Assembly: GCF_000607165.1 (NCBI RefSeq)
Contig: NZ_JFZG01000025.1
Span: forward strand, 62,001 to 126,000
DNA: 64,000 nt
Origin: Ralstonia pickettii
Lineage (GTDB): Bacteria; Pseudomonadota; Gammaproteobacteria; Burkholderiales; Burkholderiaceae
Direction: 5' to 3'
In this document: piece after piece, positions 13,588 through 26,572 of the stretch
Numbering within the stretch: the first letter of the stretch is position 1
Layout: every line of letters begins with the position of its first letter
The notes under the pieces: model-generated
What the model was told of the DNA's origin: nothing
Database searches by the model: none
Seen by the model: the letters and a program-made list of their open reading frames with translations, nothing else
Translations under genes and position numbers: made by a program

Positions 13588-15288
13588 ATGAAAACGCGTC
13601 TGCTCCCCGTCGATCTCTCCGTCGGCACCCCGTCTGATTTGCCCGATGCCGTCGAACTGGCGGCGCTGCGCGCCTGGCATGCCGGCTTGTCGACCCGTGA
13701 GGCCGTCGAGCGCTACCTGGGCGAAAGCCTGACGCCTGGACAGTCTTCGCGCGGCGTGCTTGGCCGCATCCGGCGCCAGCTCGCGGCGTTTGCGCGGCGG
13801 CGGCAGCGCGAAGATCTGGCGATGCTGTTCGAGATACAAGCGGCCGAGCGCGCAAGACAGGGGAGGGCGGCTAACCAGGCGATCGAACTGCTCCGCACGC
13901 TGCCGCTACCAGCCCCGCTTATCAGCGATGACGTGGAGTTGTGGCTGGACGCACGCGCCGTCGCCGCACTGCGTGCCGCGGGTATCGACACCTTGGCCGA
14001 CCTGACCGTGCGCGTGCCGCGCAGACGCCGGTGGTGGGCCGTCATCCCGGGGTTAGGGAAGGCCAGCGCGCGGCGCATCGAGGCGTTCTTTGCGGAACAC
14101 CCGCGTTTGACCGAGCGTGCCCGGGCATTGATCGCCGAACAGGTCCGCGGCGTGGTGATGCCGTGGGAGCAGTTGCGCCTGCCAGCCGAGGTCGACGGCT
14201 CGCAGGGGCAATTCCGCGCGCCGCGCGAGACCTGTGTGCTCACCGCTGACAACGACTACGAGGCCGTGCAGGCGTGGCTTTCCCTGCACGAATCGCCCGC
14301 CACCCAACGGTCCTACCGCAAAGAGGCAGAGCGCCTGATCTTGTGGGCGATCGTTGAACGCGACCGGCCGTTGTCGTCGCTCACCACCGAGGATGCGATT
14401 GCTTACCGGGGTTTCTTGCGCCGGCCGACACCGCGGGAACGCTGGGTTGGGCCGGCACGCCCACGCACGTCTGTCGAATGGCGGCCGTTCACCGATGGGC
14501 TGTCGGCGCGCTCGATCGCCTACGCGTTGTCCGTGTTGGGGGCTATGTTCCGTTGGTTAATTCAGCAGCGCTACGTGCTGGCCAACCCGTTCGCGGGTGT
14601 CAAGGTACGAGGCACCGGGCGGACCGCCGCTGTCGATGCCTCTCGCGCATTTACCGATGGCGAATGGTCGCTGGTGCGTACGATTGCGGACGGTTTGGAG
14701 TGGTCCTACGGCTGGGAAGCACCCGCCGCGCAGCGGTTGCGCTTTGTATTGGATTTCGGCTATAGCTGCGGTTTGCGTGCGAACGAGCTCGTTTCAGCGA
14801 AGCTTGGTGATATCGAAACAGATAGGCAGGCCGACCATTGGATCCATTTGGTGGGGAAGGGCGGTCGCGTCGGTAAGGTTGCGCTGCCGTCGCTGGCGCG
14901 AGCAGCGCTGGATCGCTATCTGGTAGAGCGTGGATTGCCAGTGACGCCGACGCGTTGGGATCCGCGAATCTCACTGATCGGCACGCTAGGGCTGGCCCCC
15001 AACGGCGGGGTGACCGGGACGCGCCTGTGGAACGTGGCCAAACGGTTCTTCCTAACGGCGGCCAACGTGATTGAAGGCGATCACCCTGTGCTGGCTGAGA
15101 AGCTACGAAAGGCCAGTCCACATTGGATGCGGCATACGCACGCCACCCATGCCCTGGAGCGCGGCGCAGAGCTGACTACCGTGCGGGACAACCTGCGGCA
15201 CGCGTCCATCTCGACGACATCGATCTATCTGCACGGTGATGACGTGAAGCGGGCTAGGCAGATCAATGCGGCTTTTGCAGCGGATTGA
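13588..15288 (+). CDS. Tyrosine-type site-specific recombinase (integrase)
   Basis: A 566-residue integrase. The first ~200 residues form an extra N-terminal region with a helix-hairpin-helix-like segment (VIPGLGKASARRIEAF), as in the Phage-integr_3/DUF3701 integrases common in Burkholderiales. A SAM-like core-binding domain follows (about 225-320). The catalytic domain shows Arg in YSCGLRANEL, Lys in HLVGKGGR, HWMRHTHAT (HxxR), LRHAS and the nucleophile in SIYLHGD, so the catalytic set appears complete. It probably mobilises or resolves the adjacent island. Convergent with ptuB, 34 bp away. Confidence 0.92.
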   Translation: MKTRLLPVDLSVGTPSDLPDAVELAALRAWHAGLSTREAVERYLGESLTPGQSSRGVLGRIRRQLAAFARRRQREDLAMLFEIQAAERARQGRAANQAIELLRTLPLPAPLISDDVELWLDARAVAALRAAGIDTLADLTVRVPRRRRWWAVIPGLGKASARRIEAFFAEHPRLTERARALIAEQVRGVVMPWEQLRLPAEVDGSQGQFRAPRETCVLTADNDYEAVQAWLSLHESPATQRSYRKEAERLILWAIVERDRPLSSLTTEDAIAYRGFLRRPTPRERWVGPARPRTSVEWRPFTDGLSARSIAYALSVLGAMFRWLIQQRYVLANPFAGVKVRGTGRTAAVDASRAFTDGEWSLVRTIADGLEWSYGWEAPAAQRLRFVLDFGYSCGLRANELVSAKLGDIETDRQADHWIHLVGKGGRVGKVALPSLARAALDRYLVERGLPVTPTRWDPRISLIGTLGLAPNGGVTGTRLWNVAKRFFLTAANVIEGDHPVLAEKLRKASPHWMRHTHATHALERGAELTTVRDNLRHASISTTSIYLHGDDVKRARQINAAFAAD

Positions 15289-15322: not shown

Positions 15323-16171
15323 TCATGCGGCGTCGACCCAAGCCGCAAGATTGGGATGGTCTGCCATAGACTTCATCAGGACGGCGATCCAATGGTTCCT
15401 GCCGTAGACCGTAGCCCGGTCTACCGCGCAGCCTTCCAGAAAGGACTGAATGTTCGGGCCACCAGTATCGCGATACTGCCGGCAGTCCGCCAGAATCTCG
15501 GCGACTTCGTCATTACCCTGCTCGTCATATCGATCGATCAGCTTGAGACGTCGAAAATGAGAGTCGATGAGCCCCCAAAGTTCGTCGGAGACCCCATTGG
15601 GTCTCTCCAAGGAAAAGGTCGCACCTACGCCCGCGAGAGCGGCGTTTTCATGCAGCGTCACCTTGACAAACTGCAGGTCAGGGACCTCGTCAATGTAAGC
15701 ATGCAAGAACAGGCGACCTCCCGCAGCCGAAAGCCAGTCGTCGTCCTTCGTGGAGTTGCACGTCGAGCAGCACGGGACCAAGTTCAGCGGATGTACCGCG
15801 AATTCTGGGAACCTGACTGCGGGCATATAGTGATCGAACGTACGAGGTAGTGTCGTTCCACACATCGGGCAATACTTCAGCAACCGTTTGGGTTGCACAT
15901 CCTGGATTGCGCGTTTGAGTCGCGCTAACGGTTGCGTGGAGCCGTTGTAGCAGGATCGCAGGGTATCGCTGAGTAGAAGGGCCTGAGCGTGACTCTGGAG
16001 GCTGGCCAATGAATTGTTGTTGACGGCGGCAGCGTGGGCCTCATACCGCTCTTCGATCAGATCATGAGCGACGGTAAGCGATGCACGCGTGGCTCTATGC
16101 TTTTTGTCTCGGATAGCAACATACCAGTCAAGGTAGGTTGGATCGTCTGGCAGGGCGGTCAGGCTTCTCAC
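15323..16171 (-). CDS. ptuB: PtuB-like HNH endonuclease (Septu-type defence)
   Basis: A 282-residue HNH nuclease. A zinc-binding CPMCG (101-105) and a second knuckle CCSTC (134-138) frame the ββα-metal core: DHYMP with catalytic His about 114, then Asn130 in NLVPCCSTCNSTK. The long helical N-terminus (1-95) and C-terminal part (150-282) lack other recognisable domains. The start is GTG at 16171, overlapping the ATPase stop by four bases (GTGA), so the two proteins are made together. In Septu systems PtuB is the nuclease controlled by the PtuA ATPase. Septu assignment rests on this pair and order. Confidence 0.75.
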   Translation of the reverse strand: MRSLTALPDDPTYLDWYVAIRDKKHRATRASLTVAHDLIEERYEAHAAAVNNNSLASLQSHAQALLLSDTLRSCYNGSTQPLARLKRAIQDVQPKRLLKYCPMCGTTLPRTFDHYMPAVRFPEFAVHPLNLVPCCSTCNSTKDDDWLSAAGGRLFLHAYIDEVPDLQFVKVTLHENAALAGVGATFSLERPNGVSDELWGLIDSHFRRLKLIDRYDEQGNDEVAEILADCRQYRDTGGPNIQSFLEGCAVDRATVYGRNHWIAVLMKSMADHPNLAAWVDAA

Positions 16172-17673
16172 TTGGTCCTGTCCCCCTTCTTACCGTACTG
16201 CGCCAGGAGATAGGCTTGGGCATTTAGGCTCAGACCGCGCTCGAAGCGGGCCATCACCGCCGCGCTCGTTTCGGCATGTGCGAGTTGCTTGAGGGTTCGG
16301 CGGTAGACGCTCTCGACTTCGATGGTCTCGAACACATGCTTGGTCAGTTCCGTGACGCTTTCACCGAAGCTTTCGAGCGCTAAAGGATTGGCCACGGTCA
16401 CGTTTTGTTCGCGCTCGAACACCAGAACTCGCTTCGCAGGAATTTCCTGAATCACAACGGGCGAGTGGGTCGCAACCACCGCGTAGGAATCGAACTCCTC
16501 CAGAATTTTCGACAGCACCAAAAACAGGCTGGCCACGGCGTTCGGGTGCAGGTGGGTTTCCGGCTCGTCGAATAGAACCATCGAGTTTGGCTGAATCCAT
16601 GCGAGCAGGGCTGTAACGAAGTGAGCCAAAATAGATTGCCCGGAGCTCAAAAGGGACAACGCCCCGTCCTCAGTGGCGCTACTACTAATCTCGGCTTTCA
16701 GACTTTCCGTCAATTGATCACCAAGGTTCCCCAAGATAATCTGCATGTAGCTGGCCCAGTCGGCTTCGCCGTCGCGATCGCGGATGCGCTTCTGGTTCCC
16801 ACGGTACGCTTCGATAAGGGACGCACGGGATAGACCGCCCTTGTCGTTCCGGATGCCGCAATAAACGTAGCTGCTAGAGTTGTCGGGTGGCGGACGCTTA
16901 AAGCGATCAAACGCACTATATGAGATGGCGATAATGCGTGTGAACAGCGGGCGGCCGCCGGGAAAGCGTTGCTCGCGCTCAGCCAGTTTCTCCGCCGAGG
17001 TTCGCGAGATTTGAGCGAGATCGGCGCCCAAGCTGGCAAGAAATCGGGTCTTGCCCACGGCATTACGGCCAATGATTCCGACGATGCGGCCAGGGACGGG
17101 ATCCCCAGGGTTGAAGGCGAATGCAGCTTCAACTTCGGCGTCAGCACCCTCGATCATCCCGAGATACGTGAAAGCAGGGTTTTCATTGATCGGCTCGCCA
17201 GCGGCCCAACTCGCACCGAATCTGCGGGCACGGTGCGCGCCGTTCTCCCGCATCATGGCGTTGCGGAAGGCCGTACTTGGTTCGAAGTCAGTAGCGAATG
17301 TTGGCCGCCAAGCAATGTCACTCAGGGAATCGAGTATGTCTCCTGTCTCGCTGCCGAAGAGCGCGTGAAGGTTCTTGTAGTAGTCCTCTTCTTGGCCTAG
17401 CGACACGAACTCCTTACCCAACTCTGAGAATGCTTCCGGCAATTTGGTGGTCTTTGCAACCTCAATGGGTTGACCATCAACATTCGTCCTCTGAAGAATT
17501 TTGACCGGACCAAGGCGCGTGGTGCTTCCTGCAGCATCGACATAACTCAAATAGAACTGTACTTTGTGACCATAGTCATCCCAATTATCTGCCGTTAAAA
17601 CGAAAGCTGGTCGTGGCGCTGAAGGGATGGACTGCCTCCGTTCACGAAGCAGAAAATTGAATTTTTCGGACAC
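16168..17673 (-). CDS. ptuA: PtuA-like AAA/ABC-type ATPase (Septu-type defence)
   Basis: A 501-residue ATPase. A region of unknown fold (1-195) precedes Walker A (GRNAVGKT, about 202-209). Then come an ABC signature-like LLSSGQS, Walker B in VLFDEPETHLHPN (about 365-377) and the switch His in VVATHSP. DEPETHLHPN is typical of OLD/PtuA-type ATPases; no TOPRIM domain follows. The start chosen is GTG at 17673, because AAGGAG lies six bases upstream. An open frame continues upstream through a hexanucleotide repeat, giving a poly-Arg extension that is probably untranslated. It overlaps ptuB by four bases. No reverse transcriptase is nearby, so this is not a PtuAB-type retron. Confidence 0.75.
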   Translation of the reverse strand: MSEKFNFLLRERRQSIPSAPRPAFVLTADNWDDYGHKVQFYLSYVDAAGSTTRLGPVKILQRTNVDGQPIEVAKTTKLPEAFSELGKEFVSLGQEEDYYKNLHALFGSETGDILDSLSDIAWRPTFATDFEPSTAFRNAMMRENGAHRARRFGASWAAGEPINENPAFTYLGMIEGADAEVEAAFAFNPGDPVPGRIVGIIGRNAVGKTRFLASLGADLAQISRTSAEKLAEREQRFPGGRPLFTRIIAISYSAFDRFKRPPPDNSSSYVYCGIRNDKGGLSRASLIEAYRGNQKRIRDRDGEADWASYMQIILGNLGDQLTESLKAEISSSATEDGALSLLSSGQSILAHFVTALLAWIQPNSMVLFDEPETHLHPNAVASLFLVLSKILEEFDSYAVVATHSPVVIQEIPAKRVLVFEREQNVTVANPLALESFGESVTELTKHVFETIEVESVYRRTLKQLAHAETSAAVMARFERGLSLNAQAYLLAQYGKKGDRTK

Positions 17674-17702
17674 CCCGTTCTCCTTGTATTGAATCAGAAT
17701 CA

Positions 17703-17756
<54 letters not shown>

Positions 17757-18249
17757 TAGCCAATACGCTCGAGGTGCGAGCGCAGCTTATTGCCGAGTCG
17801 CCCATGTGAAGCGGCCATTTTCCCGGCCGCCTCTGGTTTTCCCCTGACGCAGTCGCGCCCTCGCTTGACACTGCAGCGACACGTGTCCTTTTCGGCGTGC
17901 CGCAAGTAGTGGAACCGCAAATACCATCCACGGCATTTTATGGAAACATTTGAGGGGGCCGCTCCCCCAGAAAGGGGGGGCACCAGTTATCGTCCTATGA
18001 CACTGGTATAGACTCTTGCGAAAAATCAATATCAGCGGAGCTACGGCCTTGATATTGAAGAGGCTGCGGATTTTCGCGCCTGCAGATCGCTTTGAGGCTT
18101 TTGCTTCCATCCTCCGAGCGCAGGGACGCTGATGCGCATTGGTCGAGCGTGGCTTATGAGGCTGCGCGAGCTATTATTTGATCGCACCGGCAACCCTGTC
18201 CATCAGTTGCGCCGAATACAACTGCCGCCCATAAACGGAGGAGGCTGGC
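17757..18249. other. Divergent intergenic region of two putative defence units
   Basis: About 490 bp with no recognisable gene. It must contain the promoters of leftward ptuAB and the rightward ATPase gene. A strong hairpin GGGGG (17954-17958) / CCCCC (17964-17968) is followed by a run of Gs, and a smaller ACCAGT/ACTGGT pair lies around 17982-18007. The region from 17.79 to 18.11 kb has an open frame on the minus strand, but it lacks a recognisable family and reads like non-coding or transposon-end sequence. Confidence 0.5.
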
Positions 18250-21200
18250 ATGGAAACAACGTTTCGCCCGTTGCATTTGCACACCCTCGATAGCCTGTGC
18301 GCTGATCTCATTGGTGGCCGGTCGATCGGGGTTGGTGAGAACAACTCGCCTTTTTTGCTGGGGTCTGATGCTGCCCGCTCCGTGCTGTACTGGTACTTCG
18401 GTCACAAGGGCAAGTGGGCTGGCAATGTCTTGACCCCGGATGTTGAAGCAATTGTCGACTCCGCTGCCAGCCAACCGGAAGCATTGCCCGCAGCCGCTTC
18501 CAACACTGGAGGTCCTGCGCAGCGCTACACCCTCGTATCAGTGCGAGCGCATCAGTTTGGTGGCCTCCACCAAGCGGGGAGCTCCACGAGCAAACCTGAC
18601 GACTTTTATTTCGAATTCTCGCCACAAGCAAACTTGTTCGAAGGATTCAACGGCTCAGGCAAGACGTCACTTATCAATGCGATCGTCTGGGCGCTAACTG
18701 GCGAGATTCTCCGACCACAGCGCTCGCCAGAGTCTGGTAACAAGGAGTTCACAGTCGAGATAGACGACTCTGCTCAACACACCCTGCCTCCGGTCACCCC
18801 TTTGCCCGATCCCTCAGTTGATCGGCCTGCAGTGACGGCCCTGCCGGTGGAAACGTGGGTGGAGTTGATCTTCGAGGGGGACGACAAGACTCGTCACGCT
18901 GTTCGCAGGTCTTTGAGTCGCGGACAACGTGGTGCTCTTAAAGATGAGGAATCTGGCTTGTCGGCGCTGGGGTTGGATCCTGTCGGAGCACAAGTTGGCA
19001 CAGTCATGCCTGGTCTCCTACCGTTCATTCAGGTGGGTGCAGAGTCAAAGCTTGGGAAAGCAGTTGCTGAATTGACCGGCATGGCTCCACTGGTAAAACT
19101 TGCTTCGCATGCAGGCAAGGCCAAGAAGAAAATTGACGGAGACCTGACCAAGGACCGCAATCGCGAAATCGCAGATATCGATGCCGCCTACCTACGGTCC
19201 CATACCGATCTGGCAACGCTCTTTGCAGAACATCCGGGAGTTAAGTGGAGCAAGGATGTCCCTAGACCATCTGCCGATCCTGAGATTGAAGCCACCCTAC
19301 AAGAGCTACAGGATCACCTCGAGTCCCTCAAAGCCAACGGCCTGAAAGACGCAAAAGACGTGCTCGGTGAAACATTTGATGCAAGTGACGCGGTACAGCG
19401 GTCTAATTTAGTCCAGAGCATCCAGCCTGCTTTGTTGGCCGTCAAGAATCTGCGCACGCTGCCGTCGGCCGAGCGGCTCAGCGGCTTGTCCAAGCTGACT
19501 GATGGCGAGGTCAGCGCGACCAGAGTTCGGATTGCCGCGATCATCGAGGAGGCCGACGCACTACACGACATAGCCGCGCAACCGGGAAAGGCTGCACGAA
19601 TCCGCTTGTATGCCCGGGTGGCAACATGGATGAGCGAACATGAGCCGCATGGGATCGATACCGATCTGTGTGCAGTCTGCGGTCAAGATATTCACGCAGC
19701 GGTCGATCCGGTAACCGGTATCGCCGTAAAAACCCATATTCAAGAAGCCGCTCAGTCAAAATCCGATCTCTTGGGCAAGACCTTTTCCACGTGGGCGCAG
19801 CACGTACTCGGCGAGCTTAGTCGCGACTTGCCCGATATGCTGGCGCGGGAGATGAGGTCTGATCTGCCCGACCACCCCGGCACCCTGATTCGGCAAGCAC
19901 TCATCGAAGAGTTGTTCAAAGACGATGCCTTTGGCGGATCGCTCCGCTTGCTTCGTCCTGGGGTTGAGGCCGCATGCGATGAAGTGCTGAAGTCATTCAG
20001 CACCTGCGATATACCAAGTACCTACCAATTGGCCGATGGCCGTAAGGAGCTCGGAGACCTGAATAGGGCATTGTCCCGCCTGGAGAGGGCACTCGCATTT
20101 GCGGCATGGAGAATCGCCAACCAGCCAGCCCTTGCGAACTTCATGCAAACTGTCGTGGGGCAGTCGCCAACAGCTGATCGACCAACCCATCCCAATTCCT
20201 TGCTCGGTAGCCTTCTTCGACTGCAATCGATGGTGAACGCTATCGAGCCGGTAAACGAGGCTACGAAGCTGTGCAATCGATTGGCGGAAGATATAGGTAA
20301 GCGGCGCGCTAAGGAGAGGCGCCTTGCTGCGTATCACGTGGCCAGCGGGGCACTAGAAGAATGTGCGAAGGTGGGATTACTCGCAGAACAGCAAGTGGGG
20401 CAGCTCCAGAAACATCTACATAAGAGTGCAGTAGGCTGGCGCAACCGCATTTACTCGAGCGCATTTCCTTCTACCAGCCTCGATCTCGTCGCCACGAAGA
20501 TGGATGGCGACGGAGAGCTCCAGTTGCTTGTGGGAAGTGCAGGACTGGCCGCTCCAGCCCAACACGTTGCCAACGCCTCCGCACTACGTGCAAGCTTGGT
20601 AGGGTTCTATCTCGCCTACTGGCAACACATCCTGAAAACGCGTGGTGGTTTGCGGCTTCTTCTGCTGGATGACCCGCAAGAACTCCTCGATGGTGACAAT
20701 CGTGATCGACTTGCGGAATCCATTGAAGACCTAGTGCAGGCGAAAGCGCAGGTAATCATGACGACGCATGACCGCCGGTTCGCGGCTGCAACTGCTCGGC
20801 GTGCGCAGGGTGTCGGGATTGCATTGAACTACCGATATGTACATCCTGCCACGAAGATGCGTGGGACGTTGTTTCTGTCCCCGAGCGTCGCCAAGGTACA
20901 GAGCGCCTGCGACGCTTACAAAGCTGACCCGGACGACCCAGTAAAGGCGCAAGAATACGTCGCGGAATGTCGAGTCTTTATCGAAGGCCGGTTGGGCGAC
21001 TTCTTTGACGAGACGGCGTTTCCCTCCACCGCCACACTCAATTTCGCTCCGACCCTATCAGACCACTTGCAGCGCTTGCGCGGATTGGTCAACGGAGGAT
21101 CGAACGAACTCTTCAGGAGCCCGGTGCTTCGTGGCTTCTGCGACGATGCCGCTCTGCGGGACAAAGCTCCTGCTCTCGTGCTGTTGAACAAGGCCCATCA

Positions 21201-22152
21201 CCAAGACAAGGCCAGTATTCGACCAACCGACGTCAACAAGGCAGTGGTTGACGATCTAGAGCGCCTTCGCCGTACTGCGGAGCGGATCCATGAAGAATTT
21301 CGGCTTTTTAGGCGGAGAGCTCCCTTGGCAGTTCCACCCAATGCGCTGGCACCGCTTGAGCTGCAAGAAGTCCCTTCGTTCCAGGTGTTAGTTCAGCCCA
21401 GTTTGACGGCATTTGTCAGAGACGCTGCGATCGGTGACTCACAGGAAACGGAGTTTGAAGAGCTAAGCTCTACTTGGTTTGACGAGAAAGCCTTCTTCTA
21501 CGTACGCGCCGACAATTTCGGCTTTGCTGGGCCGGCGTCAAGCATAGCTGTTGTAGAAGCGATTCCGTCCGCTGTTGAGGACCGAATGTTGGTCGTCGCG
21601 CGCAAGGACAAAGATATCTTTGCTCGCCGGATCTTGCGCCCGTCCGATTCCGAGATGATCGCGCTGGCGGCTGAAACGCCCGATCCGCGGAAGGGGCCGC
21701 AAACGCTCCTGGTTCATCAGAATAGTGTTTCGCTACACAAAGTGGTCGGTATGCTTCTCGACCGTGATGTTCCGCCACCAGCCTCCAAGAAGGAGGCGGT
21801 GCAAATTGATGCGACGGGTATTCTTCCTCGAATTCGGGCCGCTTATCGCATCAAAGAAGATAGCGCGGTTCCACTCGCGCTACCTGGGCAGATCGCATTG
21901 GGCGGGACACCAATTGCGCTCGACCGATTTGATGCCCACATCGACTCATATGTGGCCCTGCATCTAGATGATGGATCCAGCATCTTCAAGCGTGTGGGCG
22001 AAAGGCTACCCGGAGCACTGTCGCATCTCCGGAGATTCGAGACAATCGGCGGACTTGGGGTGGCCGACGTGCTCGCTGTTGATGCCCCTCAAGCGGGCTT
22101 CAGAAGCGTTGTTCAAGCAGTACCAGTAATTGGTGTGCTGTACCACCTTTAG
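18250..22152 (+). CDS. Large SMC/RecF-like ATPase, candidate defence protein
   Basis: A 1300-residue protein. Residues 1-90 form a small N-terminal region; residues 95-150 begin an ABC/SMC-type head with Walker A (GFNGSGKTS, 132-140). A long helical middle carries CAVC (about 473-476), a candidate zinc-hook-like pair. The head resumes with Walker B (LLLLDDPQE, about 801-809) and a switch His (MTTHDRR, about 836). About 460 residues follow; residues about 1080-1170 look weakly like a LexA/S24 fold. AAA_23/RecF-type proteins bind DNA ends or gate nucleases. GGAGGAGG lies five bases before the ATG. It precedes the GHKL-nuclease gene by 266 bp on the same strand. Confidence 0.8.
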   Translation: METTFRPLHLHTLDSLCADLIGGRSIGVGENNSPFLLGSDAARSVLYWYFGHKGKWAGNVLTPDVEAIVDSAASQPEALPAAASNTGGPAQRYTLVSVRAHQFGGLHQAGSSTSKPDDFYFEFSPQANLFEGFNGSGKTSLINAIVWALTGEILRPQRSPESGNKEFTVEIDDSAQHTLPPVTPLPDPSVDRPAVTALPVETWVELIFEGDDKTRHAVRRSLSRGQRGALKDEESGLSALGLDPVGAQVGTVMPGLLPFIQVGAESKLGKAVAELTGMAPLVKLASHAGKAKKKIDGDLTKDRNREIADIDAAYLRSHTDLATLFAEHPGVKWSKDVPRPSADPEIEATLQELQDHLESLKANGLKDAKDVLGETFDASDAVQRSNLVQSIQPALLAVKNLRTLPSAERLSGLSKLTDGEVSATRVRIAAIIEEADALHDIAAQPGKAARIRLYARVATWMSEHEPHGIDTDLCAVCGQDIHAAVDPVTGIAVKTHIQEAAQSKSDLLGKTFSTWAQHVLGELSRDLPDMLAREMRSDLPDHPGTLIRQALIEELFKDDAFGGSLRLLRPGVEAACDEVLKSFSTCDIPSTYQLADGRKELGDLNRALSRLERALAFAAWRIANQPALANFMQTVVGQSPTADRPTHPNSLLGSLLRLQSMVNAIEPVNEATKLCNRLAEDIGKRRAKERRLAAYHVASGALEECAKVGLLAEQQVGQLQKHLHKSAVGWRNRIYSSAFPSTSLDLVATKMDGDGELQLLVGSAGLAAPAQHVANASALRASLVGFYLAYWQHILKTRGGLRLLLLDDPQELLDGDNRDRLAESIEDLVQAKAQVIMTTHDRRFAAATARRAQGVGIALNYRYVHPATKMRGTLFLSPSVAKVQSACDAYKADPDDPVKAQEYVAECRVFIEGRLGDFFDETAFPSTATLNFAPTLSDHLQRLRGLVNGGSNELFRSPVLRGFCDDAALRDKAPALVLLNKAHHQDKASIRPTDVNKAVVDDLERLRRTAERIHEEFRLFRRRAPLAVPPNALAPLELQEVPSFQVLVQPSLTAFVRDAAIGDSQETEFEELSSTWFDEKAFFYVRADNFGFAGPASSIAVVEAIPSAVEDRMLVVARKDKDIFARRILRPSDSEMIALAAETPDPRKGPQTLLVHQNSVSLHKVVGMLLDRDVPPPASKKEAVQIDATGILPRIRAAYRIKEDSAVPLALPGQIALGGTPIALDRFDAHIDSYVALHLDDGSSIFKRVGERLPGALSHLRRFETIGGLGVADVLAVDAPQAGFRSVVQAVPVIGVLYHL

Positions 22153-22418
22153 CCTTGTTGCTGGACCACTGATATCGAGCAATGGCGTCGTGGTGGCTCA
22201 ACGCCACTAGCTCAACTGGGTTTTGGGTGCAGCGTTTCTCCGCAGTTAAGGCATCTCTGGATATGCGCTAGTACCCGTCAAAATGGGGGCCGAAACAGCA
22301 TTGGATTACCACAAGGCCTCGGAACAGTAGGGCAAGCGCAAGCAGCGACGGTGATGCTGGGGAGCACTTTATCTGGCGCGAGCCCGGCTGAAGGGAAATG
22401 AGGACAGGGGGAATACAG
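22153..22418. other. Intergenic spacer between SMC-like and GHKL genes
   Basis: 266 bp with no gene. There is no strong hairpin-plus-T-run terminator, so read-through from the ATPase gene is possible, but the distance also allows a separate promoter for the GHKL gene. A GGGGG tract lies about nine bases before the chosen GHKL start. Confidence 0.4.
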
Positions 22419-24431
22419 ATGGCAAAGCCGCGCAAAAAGACGGACAACGTCACGGAATCGATCTTTGAAGATGACTACCTGGTGCGGACGCTTGGGTCCA
22501 TCGCTCACGATTCGGAAGTCGCACTCACAGAGCTCGTTGCCAACGCTTGGGATGCAGGTGCGTCGCTGGTGGATCTGACCATCCCTCCGTTACGCGAATT
22601 GGTCTTGACCGTCGAGGACGATGGGCACGGCATGAGTGCAGCCCAGTTCAGGGGCCGCTGGATGAGACTAGGCTACAACCGCGTCAAGCACCAGGGGCCG
22701 AACGTTGAGTTTCCTGCTGAGCGAAAGGGCTGGCGCCGCCGAGCTTATGGCCACAACGGGGTCGGCCGGCATGGGTTGCTGTGCTTCGCAAGTCAATATT
22801 CGGTGGAGACTTGGCGTGATAGCAAGGGCGCGAGCTTCGCGATTGGAACCCAGAGCCAAGATTCTCCATTCCGCATAGAGAAGGAAACATCATTCTCGCG
22901 CCAGGGGCACGGGACCAAGCTGTCCGTATTGGTGGAGCGCCACTTGCCTAATGCGGACAGGATTCGCGAAATCCTCTCGGCGAGGTTCCTACATGACCCG
23001 CAGTTTGTTGTGCGAGTTAATGGTCAGTCGGTGTCGCTGGCCGATCAGACAGGGCTAATCGAGAGGGCGAATCTGGCAATCGAAGGTTGCCCGTCCGCAG
23101 AGGCTTATGTCGTGGACTCGACGCGAACGGCCAAGTCAACGCTCTATCAAGGTATTGCATTCTGGGTGAACGGTCGGCTAGTGGGTACCCCGGGGTGGAT
23201 CATAGGGGCTGAGGCCGTGATTGACGGCCGCGCACGTTTTGCCAAGCGCTACTCGATCGTGGTTAAGGCCGATGATGGTTGGATGGCAGAGGTCGAGTCT
23301 GACTGGTCCCGTTTCAAAACAGGCCCCAAAGCGGCTGCCTTGTTTCAAGCCGCACGCCAGTATGCGCTACGCGTTTTTGCTTCCCTCTCGTCAACGTTCG
23401 TGGAGGAGAGTTCAGAGGAGGCGCTCGTCCGCAACAAGGAACAGTTCAAGGAGCTATCACAGCTTGGTAGGGCCGAGGTGGCCACTTTCGCTCGCGAACT
23501 GGTGGCGTCGACACCGACGGTTTCACAGGATGTCCTTTCCGCAGCGGTGCAAGCGCTGATCAATTTAGAGAAGGCCAGAGGCGGGGCGGCTTTGCTTGAA
23601 AAGCTTACACAGCTCGACGAGTCGGACATCGAAGGTCTTGATCGTTTGCTCGGTCAATGGACGGTGCGTGATGCCCTTTCCGTCCTCGATGAGATCGACC
23701 ATCGGCTAGCAGTACTTGCTGCAATCGAGAAGCTTTCCGGCGACGACACGACCGACGAGTTGCACACCCTACATCCGTTAGTGACGCAGGCGAGGTGGCT
23801 CTTTGGCCCAGAGTTCGATAGCAGCGAATACGCCTCAAATGTGAGCCTGAGGACAGCAGCAGAGAAAGTATTCAAAAAACGCGTGTCCGCGGATGCCTTC
23901 GCTAATCACAAGCAGCGGCCAGACATCATGGTGTTGGCCGACGCGACTTGTTCGATTGTGGGCACTGAGGGCTTTGATCCCACGGATGCCAGCCTCACTC
24001 GCATACAGAACGTCCTGATCATCGAACTCAAGAAGGGAAAGTCAGCGATCGGCCGTGAGGAGATGACGCAAGCCGATGGCTATGTGCAGGATTTCCTGTC
24101 CAGTGGGGCACTGGATGGGACGCCAATGTTTCGTGCATTCGTCATTGGGCACGAGATAGCGCCGAAGACCACGAAGGAGAAAGAGCTTAGGGAGGATGGC
24201 ATGCTTCGGGGGCGCGTGGTTGCGGCCACCTATGGTCAGCTCATGAGGACTGCCCATCAACGGCTCTTTCGGCTCAAGGAGCGAATTCCCGCGCGATATG
24301 AAGATGTGTCGGGCGCGGACCTTTCGGCGAAGGTCATGCAGACTGCCACCCAGGCCCCGCTCGCATTGCCTGCGCCAAAGCAAGATGAATATGTGACTGA
24401 ACCGAAATTCGCAGGCTCGTTACTGCGCTAG
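22419..24431 (+). CDS. GHKL (MORC/MutL-like) ATPase with C-terminal PD-(D/E)xK-like nuclease domain
   Basis: About 670 residues. The N-terminus is a GHKL ATPase: N box ELVANAWDAGA (about 38-48), G1 box DDGHGM (67-72) and G2 box GHNGVGRHGLL (111-121). A transducer-like middle follows. The C-terminal part has RPDIMVL (about 504-510) and, about 25 residues later, IIELKKGK (about 532-540) then QADGYVQDF, the layout of a PD-(D/E)xK nuclease (PD...ExK, then a helical Gln). GHKL ATPases of the MORC/MutL type use ATP-driven dimerisation on DNA. An upstream ATG at 22398 is in frame but has a poorly spaced ribosome binding site. An IS481 element abuts its stop codon. Confidence 0.8.
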   Translation: MAKPRKKTDNVTESIFEDDYLVRTLGSIAHDSEVALTELVANAWDAGASLVDLTIPPLRELVLTVEDDGHGMSAAQFRGRWMRLGYNRVKHQGPNVEFPAERKGWRRRAYGHNGVGRHGLLCFASQYSVETWRDSKGASFAIGTQSQDSPFRIEKETSFSRQGHGTKLSVLVERHLPNADRIREILSARFLHDPQFVVRVNGQSVSLADQTGLIERANLAIEGCPSAEAYVVDSTRTAKSTLYQGIAFWVNGRLVGTPGWIIGAEAVIDGRARFAKRYSIVVKADDGWMAEVESDWSRFKTGPKAAALFQAARQYALRVFASLSSTFVEESSEEALVRNKEQFKELSQLGRAEVATFARELVASTPTVSQDVLSAAVQALINLEKARGGAALLEKLTQLDESDIEGLDRLLGQWTVRDALSVLDEIDHRLAVLAAIEKLSGDDTTDELHTLHPLVTQARWLFGPEFDSSEYASNVSLRTAAEKVFKKRVSADAFANHKQRPDIMVLADATCSIVGTEGFDPTDASLTRIQNVLIIELKKGKSAIGREEMTQADGYVQDFLSSGALDGTPMFRAFVIGHEIAPKTTKEKELREDGMLRGRVVAATYGQLMRTAHQRLFRLKERIPARYEDVSGADLSAKVMQTATQAPLALPAPKQDEYVTEPKFAGSLLR

Positions 24432-25426
24432 GTGTTTGGTCCCATGTTTTGATGGTGCAATCTCTTCTCTGCAATGGAAGGAAGCACTATGGGCCAGGTT
24501 CTCCACGGGAGCGCCACGGCGACAGAGGCAGTCCGTCGAGCAATACAAAATAGTCAAGAGAGCCTGAGCGCGCTGTCCGGGCGTTACGGGATCAATCAGA
24601 AGACGGTTGCAAAGTGGAAGAAGCGAGCTTCGGTCACCGATTTGCCGACCGGGCCGAAGCAGCCTTGCTCTACCGTTTTATCGGTCGAGGACGAGGCAAC
24701 GGTCGTTGCCTTTCGCAAGAACACGCTGCTGCCGCTGGACGATTGCCTCTATGCGCTGCAGCCGACGATCCCGCACCTGACGCGATCATCATTGCACCGA
24801 TGCCACGGCATCTCGCGCTTGCCTGACGTCGAGGGCGATAAGCCAATCAAGAAGAGGTTCAAGGGCTACCCGATCGGCTATTTCCACGTCGATATCGCAG
24901 AGGTGCAAACGGCCGAGGGCAAGCTCTATCTCTTCGTGGCCATCGACAGGACCTCAAAGTTCGCTTTCACTGAACTGCATCCCAAAGCCGGCAAGATGAT
25001 TGCGGCACAGTTCCTGCGTAACTTGGTCGATGCCGTGCCGTACACCATCCATACGGTGCTGATCGACAACGGCATCCAGTTCACCAACCGAACCTGTGAT
25101 CGATACGCCTTCGACCATATCTTTGACCGGGTCTGCGTCGAGCATGCCATCGAGCAACGCCTGACCAAGGTCAGACACCCCTGAACCAATGGGCAGGTCG
25201 AGCGGATGAATCGGACCATCACGGAGGCCACCGTTAAACGTTTCCATTACGACGATCACGCTCAACTGCGCCGGCACCTGGCTGACTTCATCGACGCCTA
25301 CAATTTCGGGCGAAGACTCAAGACCCTCAAGGGTCTAACCCCGTACGAATTCATCTGCTAACAGTGGACAGCCGAGCCAGATCGATTCAGGATTGATCCG
25401 ATCCATCAAATGCCGGGACTGAACAC
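24432..25426. mobile_element. IS481-family insertion sequence, decayed
   Basis: A 995-bp element. The left end GTGTTTGGTCCC (from 24432) and the reverse complement of the right end GTGTTCAGTCCC (ending 25426) are imperfect inverted repeats that match again at TTTGATGG. CTAG lies directly outside both ends (24428-24431 and 25427-25430), matching the IS481 family preference for CTAG targets with duplication. The left CTAG contains the TAG stop of the GHKL gene. Its transposase has a premature stop. Confidence 0.88.
24489..25361 (+). pseudogene. IS481 transposase with in-frame nonsense codon
   Basis: The frame is intact over 291 codons except for a TGA at 25182-25184, where family members read a Trp just before TNGQVERMNRT. 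The upstream part has an N-terminal helix-turn-helix (GINQKTVAKWKKR) and the first DDE acids (HVDIAE, LIDNGIQF); the downstream part restores the catalytic Glu (GQVERMNRT) and the C-terminal LTPYEFIC. One TGG-to-TGA change explains the break. The truncated 231-residue product lacks the third catalytic acid and should be inactive. Confidence 0.9.
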
Positions 25427-25544
25427 CTAGATGAGGACGTCGACGACAAATGCGTCGCTTGCCGGCTTAACGAGCTTGACCTCTATGGCGATAAGACGTG
25501 CTGAACACTCGGAAAGCGCCGGCTGTGCTGGCAGAGGGAAAAAC

Positions 25545-26012
25545 ATGAAATTCAAGACGGGGCCGTGGCTCGATATCGGTGTGTTGCCGGTTCAGGAGGG
25601 AACCTATGAAGTCAAGTTGCCCTCAGGCGAGAAGGCAAAGGCAATTTTTCAATCCGGCACGTGGAGGAAGCATCCTGCCGATTTCACAGAATGGCGGGGA
25701 AGGGTGCTCAAGGGAATGTCCAGTGCTCGCCAGCACAGGGAGAGCGTGGATAGTTTCCGTACAGCGTTACCCAGAACATATCCAACTGCCGTAGAGAGCG
25801 CCGTCTTTCTCGCGCGACACGCGGTTTCGCTGAACTACAAGAAGGACGCATATCGCTACTACCTAATTGCAAACGCAATTGACCGAACCAGGCTGAAGCG
25901 AGTCGACAAACAGTGGCTGAAACGGTTCGCCATGAATTCAGATGTCCGGGACGAGCAGCGCAAGGCTGACAAGTTTTTCGAGCGGTGCGGTGGTAGACCT
26001 CGTCAAGCTTAA
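25545..26012 (+). CDS. Hypothetical 155-residue protein, possible third gene of the GHKL unit
   Basis: The start at 25545 has AGAGGG about six bases upstream. The protein begins MKFKTGPWLDIGVLPVQEGT, has a beta-rich first half and a helical, Lys/Arg-rich second half, with no recognised family. The frame is open further upstream to an ATG at 25431, immediately after the IS481 target CTAG. It is on the same strand as the putative defence genes and was close behind the GHKL gene before the IS inserted, so it may have belonged to that operon. Function unknown. Confidence 0.55.
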   Translation: MKFKTGPWLDIGVLPVQEGTYEVKLPSGEKAKAIFQSGTWRKHPADFTEWRGRVLKGMSSARQHRESVDSFRTALPRTYPTAVESAVFLARHAVSLNYKKDAYRYYLIANAIDRTRLKRVDKQWLKRFAMNSDVRDEQRKADKFFERCGGRPRQA

Positions 26013-26298: not shown

Positions 26299-26357
26299 TG
26301 GCCGACAAGTGAACAGGGGTACCTCGCGAAAGTGAATAGATTTGCTTCCGTCCGCCA
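26299..26357. repeat. 59-bp direct repeat, copy A
   Basis: Begins TGGCCGACAAGTGAAC and ends GCTTCCGTCCGCCA. It matches copy B (26514-26572) at 52 of 59 positions in the same orientation. The pair resembles repeated ends of an insertion sequence or internal terminal repeats, but no transposase of a matching element is in the window. Confidence 0.8.
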
Positions 26358-26513: not shown

Positions 26514-26572
26514 TGGCCGACGAGTGAATAGGGCTACCTCACGAAAGTGAACAAAATTGCTTCCGTCCGCCA
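26514..26572. repeat. 59-bp direct repeat, copy B
   Basis: Begins TGGCCGACGAGTGAAT and ends GCTTCCGTCCGCCA. Direct repeat of copy A with seven mismatches, 215 bp downstream of it. Together they bracket the small zinc-ribbon-like fragment. Confidence 0.8.

Follow-up and report, generated by a model that had tools for sequence, protein, structure and literature searches.

Two adjacent genes were analysed in a 64,000-nucleotide stretch of DNA from Ralstonia pickettii (contig NZ_JFZG01000025.1, positions 62,001 to 126,000), which is referred to as the window. The first gene encodes a Rad50/SMC-like ATPase (the SMC protein), and the second encodes a GHKL ATPase fused to a PD-(D/E)xK nuclease (the GHKL protein). 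They lie on the same strand with a gap of 245 bp when counted from the first ATG of the GHKL gene, translation of which probably starts at position 22419, after GGGGGAA. Both lie in an island of low G+C content (approximately 56-57%, versus approximately 60-68% in the flanks). An earlier note on this DNA had described the motifs of both proteins, which are present where it placed them, as well as the surroundings, in which a Septu-like pair does lie beside the genes, as does a DUF3701 tyrosine recombinase. It had also proposed that the SMC protein (sensor) and the GHKL-nuclease protein (effector) form one system. That proposal failed the co-occurrence check that the note itself had suggested, and the interval looks like two independent single-gene defence-type modules, not a pair. 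The coordinates of all features are listed in Table 1.

Table 1. Features of the two genes and of the island around them (positions are those of the window).
Feature	Position	Strand	Remarks
Rad50/SMC-like ATPase gene, 1300 aa	18250..22152	+	N-terminal domain, ABC head with CxxC hook, HEPN-like domain, D1, D2
Conserved N-terminal domain of the SMC protein, ~90 residues	18250-18534	+	
Walker A GFNGSGKTS, residues 132-140	18643..18669	+	N134, G135, G137 and K138 in 68/68
CxxC zinc-hook-like motif, C474 and C477	19669..19680	+	68/68
Walker B / D-loop LLLLDDPQE	20656..20682	+	D807-Q810 in 68/68
HEPN-like helical domain (predicted), residues 863-1025	20836..21324	+	invariant R908, E912, N980, H983, H984
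LexA-like domain D1, residues 1042-1171	21373..21762	+	dyad positions N1089/R1126 degenerate
Second C-terminal beta domain D2, residues 1172-1300	21763..22149	+	candidate active LexA-like domain
Invariant S1205	21862-21864	+	in D2
Invariant K1247	21988-21990	+	in D2
GHKL (paraMORC-type) ATPase fused to PD-(D/E)xK nuclease, Shedu-like	22398..24431	+	
Nuclease core RPD (507-509) ... ELK (543-545)	23916..24032	+	R507, P508, D509 and K545 in 10/10
DUF3701 tyrosine recombinase	13588..15288	+	island edge
Septu-like pair, PDC-M01B HNH and PDC-M01A ATPase	15323..17931	-	PADLOC match; distinct from the main finding
IS481-type transposase, 236 aa	24474..25184	+	covers model positions 2-226 of 284

Domains of the SMC protein

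The family of the SMC protein is conserved at approximately 1300 residues. Conservation was counted in an alignment of 68 rows (67 loci plus the window), while 18 of the 85 loci, being truncated or split, were excluded and examined as fragments; among the 14 fragments that cover position 138, 12 have Lys, one has Ala and one has Arg. Other alignments used were A3 and A6 (each with 61 of the 63 full-length rows from the window and genomic loci, the choice of rows differing between the two), A5 (44 rows) and A7 (45 rows). This analysis established the conservation of the family, its Rad50-like head and the LexA-like nature of D1. The head and D1 assignments are well supported, and we consider it highly probable that both are correct.

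For D1, 51 of 61 members matched the Pfam model Peptidase_S24 at E<=1, hhalign against LexA returned a probability of 79, and the predicted fold agrees. A1054 aligns with the cleavage-site Ala of LexA, and the AA/F segment ahead of D1 was aligned with what we take to be A84/G85 in LexA numbering. The Ser-Lys dyad is missing from D1, as position 1089 is Thr in 40, Asn in 14 and Ser in 14 sequences, and position 1126 is Arg in 67 of 68. In D2, S1205 and K1247 are invariant among sequences reaching down to approximately 25% identity, and the alignment of D1 with D2 puts these two residues on the LexA dyad positions. By this alignment, D2 may be a diverged copy of D1 and might itself be a LexA-like domain. 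Two results weigh against such an assignment: D2 alone gives no S24 or LexA match by sequence, and its fold matches, when it is taken alone, are SH3-like barrels.

The helical domain ahead of D1 has only five invariant residues. R908, E912 and H983/H984, which occur in 68 of 68 rows, fit the R-x3-E ... H pattern of the anticodon nuclease (ACNase) triad as a pattern of residues only, and the predicted fold of the domain matches HEPN RNases. No sequence-level match to HEPN was found in Pfam or the Protein Data Bank (PDB), and for an RloC-type protein the PDB search gave no relative either. The predicted fold and the residue pattern suggest that this is a HEPN domain, and by analogy we lean slightly toward regarding the SMC protein as an RNase.

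This build resembles that of RloC and PrrC, in which a single gene likewise encodes an ABC head of the Rad50 type divided by a coiled coil, a CxxC hook in the helical insert and a C-terminal HEPN-type domain with R-x3-E ... H, the HEPN domain of the SMC protein being a predicted one. According to the RloC papers, the R-x3-E ... H triad is that of the ACNase (PMC2610378), the protein acts as a DNA-break sensor and effector whose latency is imposed by its own ATPase region (PMC2610378, PMC3874168), and it requires linear DNA and is turned on by inducers of DNA breaks (PMC3874168). RloC has 658-897 residues and an E-to-H spacing of 41 (PMC2610378), whereas the SMC protein has approximately 1300 residues and a spacing of approximately 70. 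The SMC protein is also extended at its N-terminus by a further domain and at its C-terminus by two beta domains, of which the first is LexA-like. The Pfam domain AAA_13 was not found above noise in the SMC family, as 2 of 44 members gave a match and the best E was 0.084, and the SMC protein was therefore rejected as RloC proper. A search with PF13166 gave matches in 11 of 150 genomes, and the RloC alignment dropped 2 of 11 rows.

With LexA, lambda CI and UmuD, the SMC protein shares the sequence and fold of D1 and, going by the alignment of D1 with D2, a Ser and a Lys of D2 at equivalent positions. It differs from them in that the S24-like part is joined to a Rad50-HEPN-like protein rather than to a DNA-binding helix-turn-helix, the dyad of D1 is degenerate, and D2 is not recognised by S24 models. 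Only 11 of 30 S24 loci gave a LexA stretch under the motif filter. Another genome encodes an 801-residue open reading frame (ORF; L185:1896-4301, minus strand) with a nuclease-like N-terminus, a DUF2075-like nucleoside triphosphatase (both named by eye) and an S24 domain (Pfam E 1e-9) in which the Ser and Lys motifs are both present. LexA-like domains may thus be fused to several defence-type enzymes.

The GHKL protein, gene neighbourhoods and pairing

The GHKL and nuclease motifs were also established. The GHKL protein matches HATPase_c_3, as do all 10 sequences of alignment A4, which consists of this protein and nine relatives. SduA_C (DUF4263) was matched at E<=1 by 4 of the 10 (best 3.1e-6), the window protein not being among them, and a model of the restriction enzymes BbrUII/HgiDII gave 94.7 bits, below its cut-off of 550. 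Scans of the window's genome with PF14082 and PF00717 did not reach the SMC or GHKL gene. Searched against the PDB, the GHKL profile matched MutL and Hsp90 heads, with no Shedu nuclease among the 60 of 91 rows listed. Its sole phage relative is annotated ParaMORC3 (24% identity across the ATPase part). The closest relative found, at 47% identity, is in a viral-collection contig (L102:8001-9866), and the SMC gene is absent from the stretch examined there. Five plasmid loci with the GHKL gene have no same-strand partner in common, and two near relatives (L007 and L008) share a RusA-type gene and its neighbouring ORF on the opposite strand.

As described in PMC12137116, VcSduA of Vibrio cholerae combines GHKL and DUF4263, a build formerly called paraMORC3 and assigned to Shedu type I-D, and its anti-phage activity is seen without a partner and is abolished by E27A or K557A. 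Judged from that description and from sequence, the most fitting place for the GHKL gene is among the relatives of the Shedu type I-D / paraMORC3 nucleases, with which it shares a GHKL ATPase followed by a C-terminal PD-(D/E)xK nuclease that may be SduA_C/DUF4263-like; it differs in falling below the SduA_C threshold and in its additional sub-cut-off BbrUII/HgiDII match.

Relatives of the SMC protein were collected with a six-member profile from the contigs of 84,980 species genomes, in which 157 stretches fit a pattern and 96 encode an SMC relative; of the 80 loci retained, 62 are alphaproteobacterial as judged by names. The gene reads as two separate ORFs in 9 of the 80, which may reflect assembly error or inactivation. 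There were no matches in 50,697 phage records, and viral contigs gave nothing beyond a 66-residue P-loop match in L136, a locus brought in by the SMC scan and outside the 34 viral-contig loci of the GHKL gene.

Testing from both sides led us to reject a two-gene system. With BLAST against every ORF in flanks of up to 10 kb (shorter near contig ends), a GHKL relative was found in 1 of 80 genomic SMC loci (L062, 25% identity, approximately 5 kb away on the opposite strand), and none of the 5 plasmid loci had one. Conversely, the SMC protein was absent from all 5 plasmid loci and all 34 viral-contig loci of the GHKL gene. Among plasmid records, 20 have the GHKL gene and 25 the SMC gene, with none in common. 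Among 398 genomes of the phylum, the former is present in 4 and the latter in 2, and both occur solely in the window's own (E <= 1e-40; 2-3 candidates scored per genome), while in the order the numbers are 6 and 1 of 300 genomes, the one with the SMC gene being again the window's own (E <= 1e-10).

No other constant partner of the SMC gene was found by a clustering of ORFs within 8 kb in the genomic and plasmid loci. The commonest neighbour cluster is an SbcD/Mre11-type exonuclease (annotated SbcCD subunit D in L003), present in 11 loci and adjacent (<800 bp) in 5. The nearest same-strand neighbour is within 60 bp upstream in 4 of 77 loci and downstream in 10 of 77. An ORF pair of approximately 390 and 423 residues recurs near the SMC gene in L034, L040, L050 and L085.

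A PADLOC scan covered 130 of 525 neighbouring proteins (at least 150 residues, none above 900, within 5 kb) from 20 of the 80 loci, of which L040 and L050 have several neighbours in common. Among the 25 of 113 families listed, and without a random baseline, the matches include ZorA/ZorB, SngB/SngC, SIR2, HerA, DarG, BrxH, PtuA, DndC, HEC-06 and mad8, naming systems such as Zorya and Shango. From these matches, and from the kinship of the GHKL protein to a tested anti-phage nuclease family, the defence-type function that the earlier note had proposed is likely for each gene, and both may act against phages, whereas its two-gene system falls away.

Within the island, the Septu-like pair is a candidate defence system by itself. 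The IS481-type transposase ORF, which follows the GHKL gene, is likely truncated, and a pair of 59-nt direct repeats (26299-26357 and 26514-26572, 88% identical) lies on the right side.

Proposed mechanism and rival explanations

With moderate confidence, we favour two modules: a RloC-like, DNA-break-sensing RNase with a built-in LexA-like regulator, and a stand-alone nuclease of the paraMORC/Shedu type. By analogy with RloC, the zinc-hooked, Rad50-like ABC head would engage DNA ends or abnormal phage DNA, and ATP turnover would pass the signal from the head to the HEPN-type RNase, which would cut tRNA or other RNA and stop translation, resulting in abortive infection. The C-terminal LexA-like pair, with D1 degenerate and D2 bearing Ser and Lys, might hold the protein off or set its threshold. 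Most economically, D2, stimulated by a RecA filament, would cleave the linker ahead of D1 at the AA/F segment, thereby freeing the RNase. Proteolysis or autocleavage by the module is a tentative suggestion that we consider rather doubtful, and RecA as the trigger is slightly less probable than that. A single protein acting as an SOS-licensed suicide RNase, in which self-cleavage triggered by phage-induced filaments of RecA on single-stranded DNA frees or destroys the RNase, likewise seems rather doubtful; if it is true, the effector would be wired straight to RecA instead of via transcription. In the other module, a dimerising GHKL ATPase would gate the cleavage of phage DNA by a PD-(D/E)xK nuclease.

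The closest rival overlaps with this explanation: the LexA-like module might be non-proteolytic, serving in RecA docking, dimerisation or sensing of DNA structure, with the RNase held off uncleaved. The degenerate D1 (N/T/S1089, R1126) and the SH3-like fold matches of D2, which lacks an S24 sequence match, are what such a module would predict, but the invariance of S1205 and K1247 on the LexA dyad positions speaks for a catalytic role, and we regard this rival as possible, though not probable. It is improbable that the SMC protein is instead a Lamassu-like sensor of the LmuB type, with a merely structural C-terminal helical domain and the effector elsewhere, or the clamp on DNA itself being the effector. 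LmuB is its best PADLOC match (1e-18) and is ranked by Foldseek directly after Rad50, and an SMC-like head is common to both; however, the Lamassu chains among the Foldseek matches have approximately 560-650 residues, and the SMC protein has a nuclease-like domain of its own, with five invariant polar residues resembling an active site. Membership in Lamassu was rejected, as no LmuA or LmuC was found (among the best 25 hits for each of 7 window proteins or the 25 of 113 neighbour families listed) and the SMC gene has no conserved neighbour.

We give the same low standing to the notion that the family serves mobile elements in DNA repair and is not a defence gene. Its Rad50-like head and the SbcD/Mre11-type cluster would suit such a role, but the sporadic distribution, the defence-gene neighbours, the loci with two ORFs and the RNase-like invariant residues do not. 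Least probable is the two-gene system, with the SMC protein sensing DNA and the GHKL protein as its effector: the adjacency of the genes on one strand is outweighed by the near absence of either gene from the loci of the other, and a GHKL effector is less needed because the SMC protein has its own nuclease-like domain.

ABC-HEPN toxins, S24 proteases and GHKL-Shedu proteins are already known kinds, while a Rad50-like and HEPN-like protein fused to LexA-like domains is new as far as our literature searches go. No paper combining RloC, HEPN, Rad50 or SMC with LexA or S24 was found among the papers listed from the open-licence literature of PubMed Central (for the largest result, 15 of 142), and the HEPN survey has 0 mentions of LexA or S24. 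Two solitary modules take the place of the pair that was first read here. That a family built much like RloC also carries a LexA-like module suggests that toxins of this sort have a second lock, tied to the SOS response, and that RecA filaments may lead directly to an arrest of translation. How defence toxins read DNA damage thereby becomes testable with a few point mutants.
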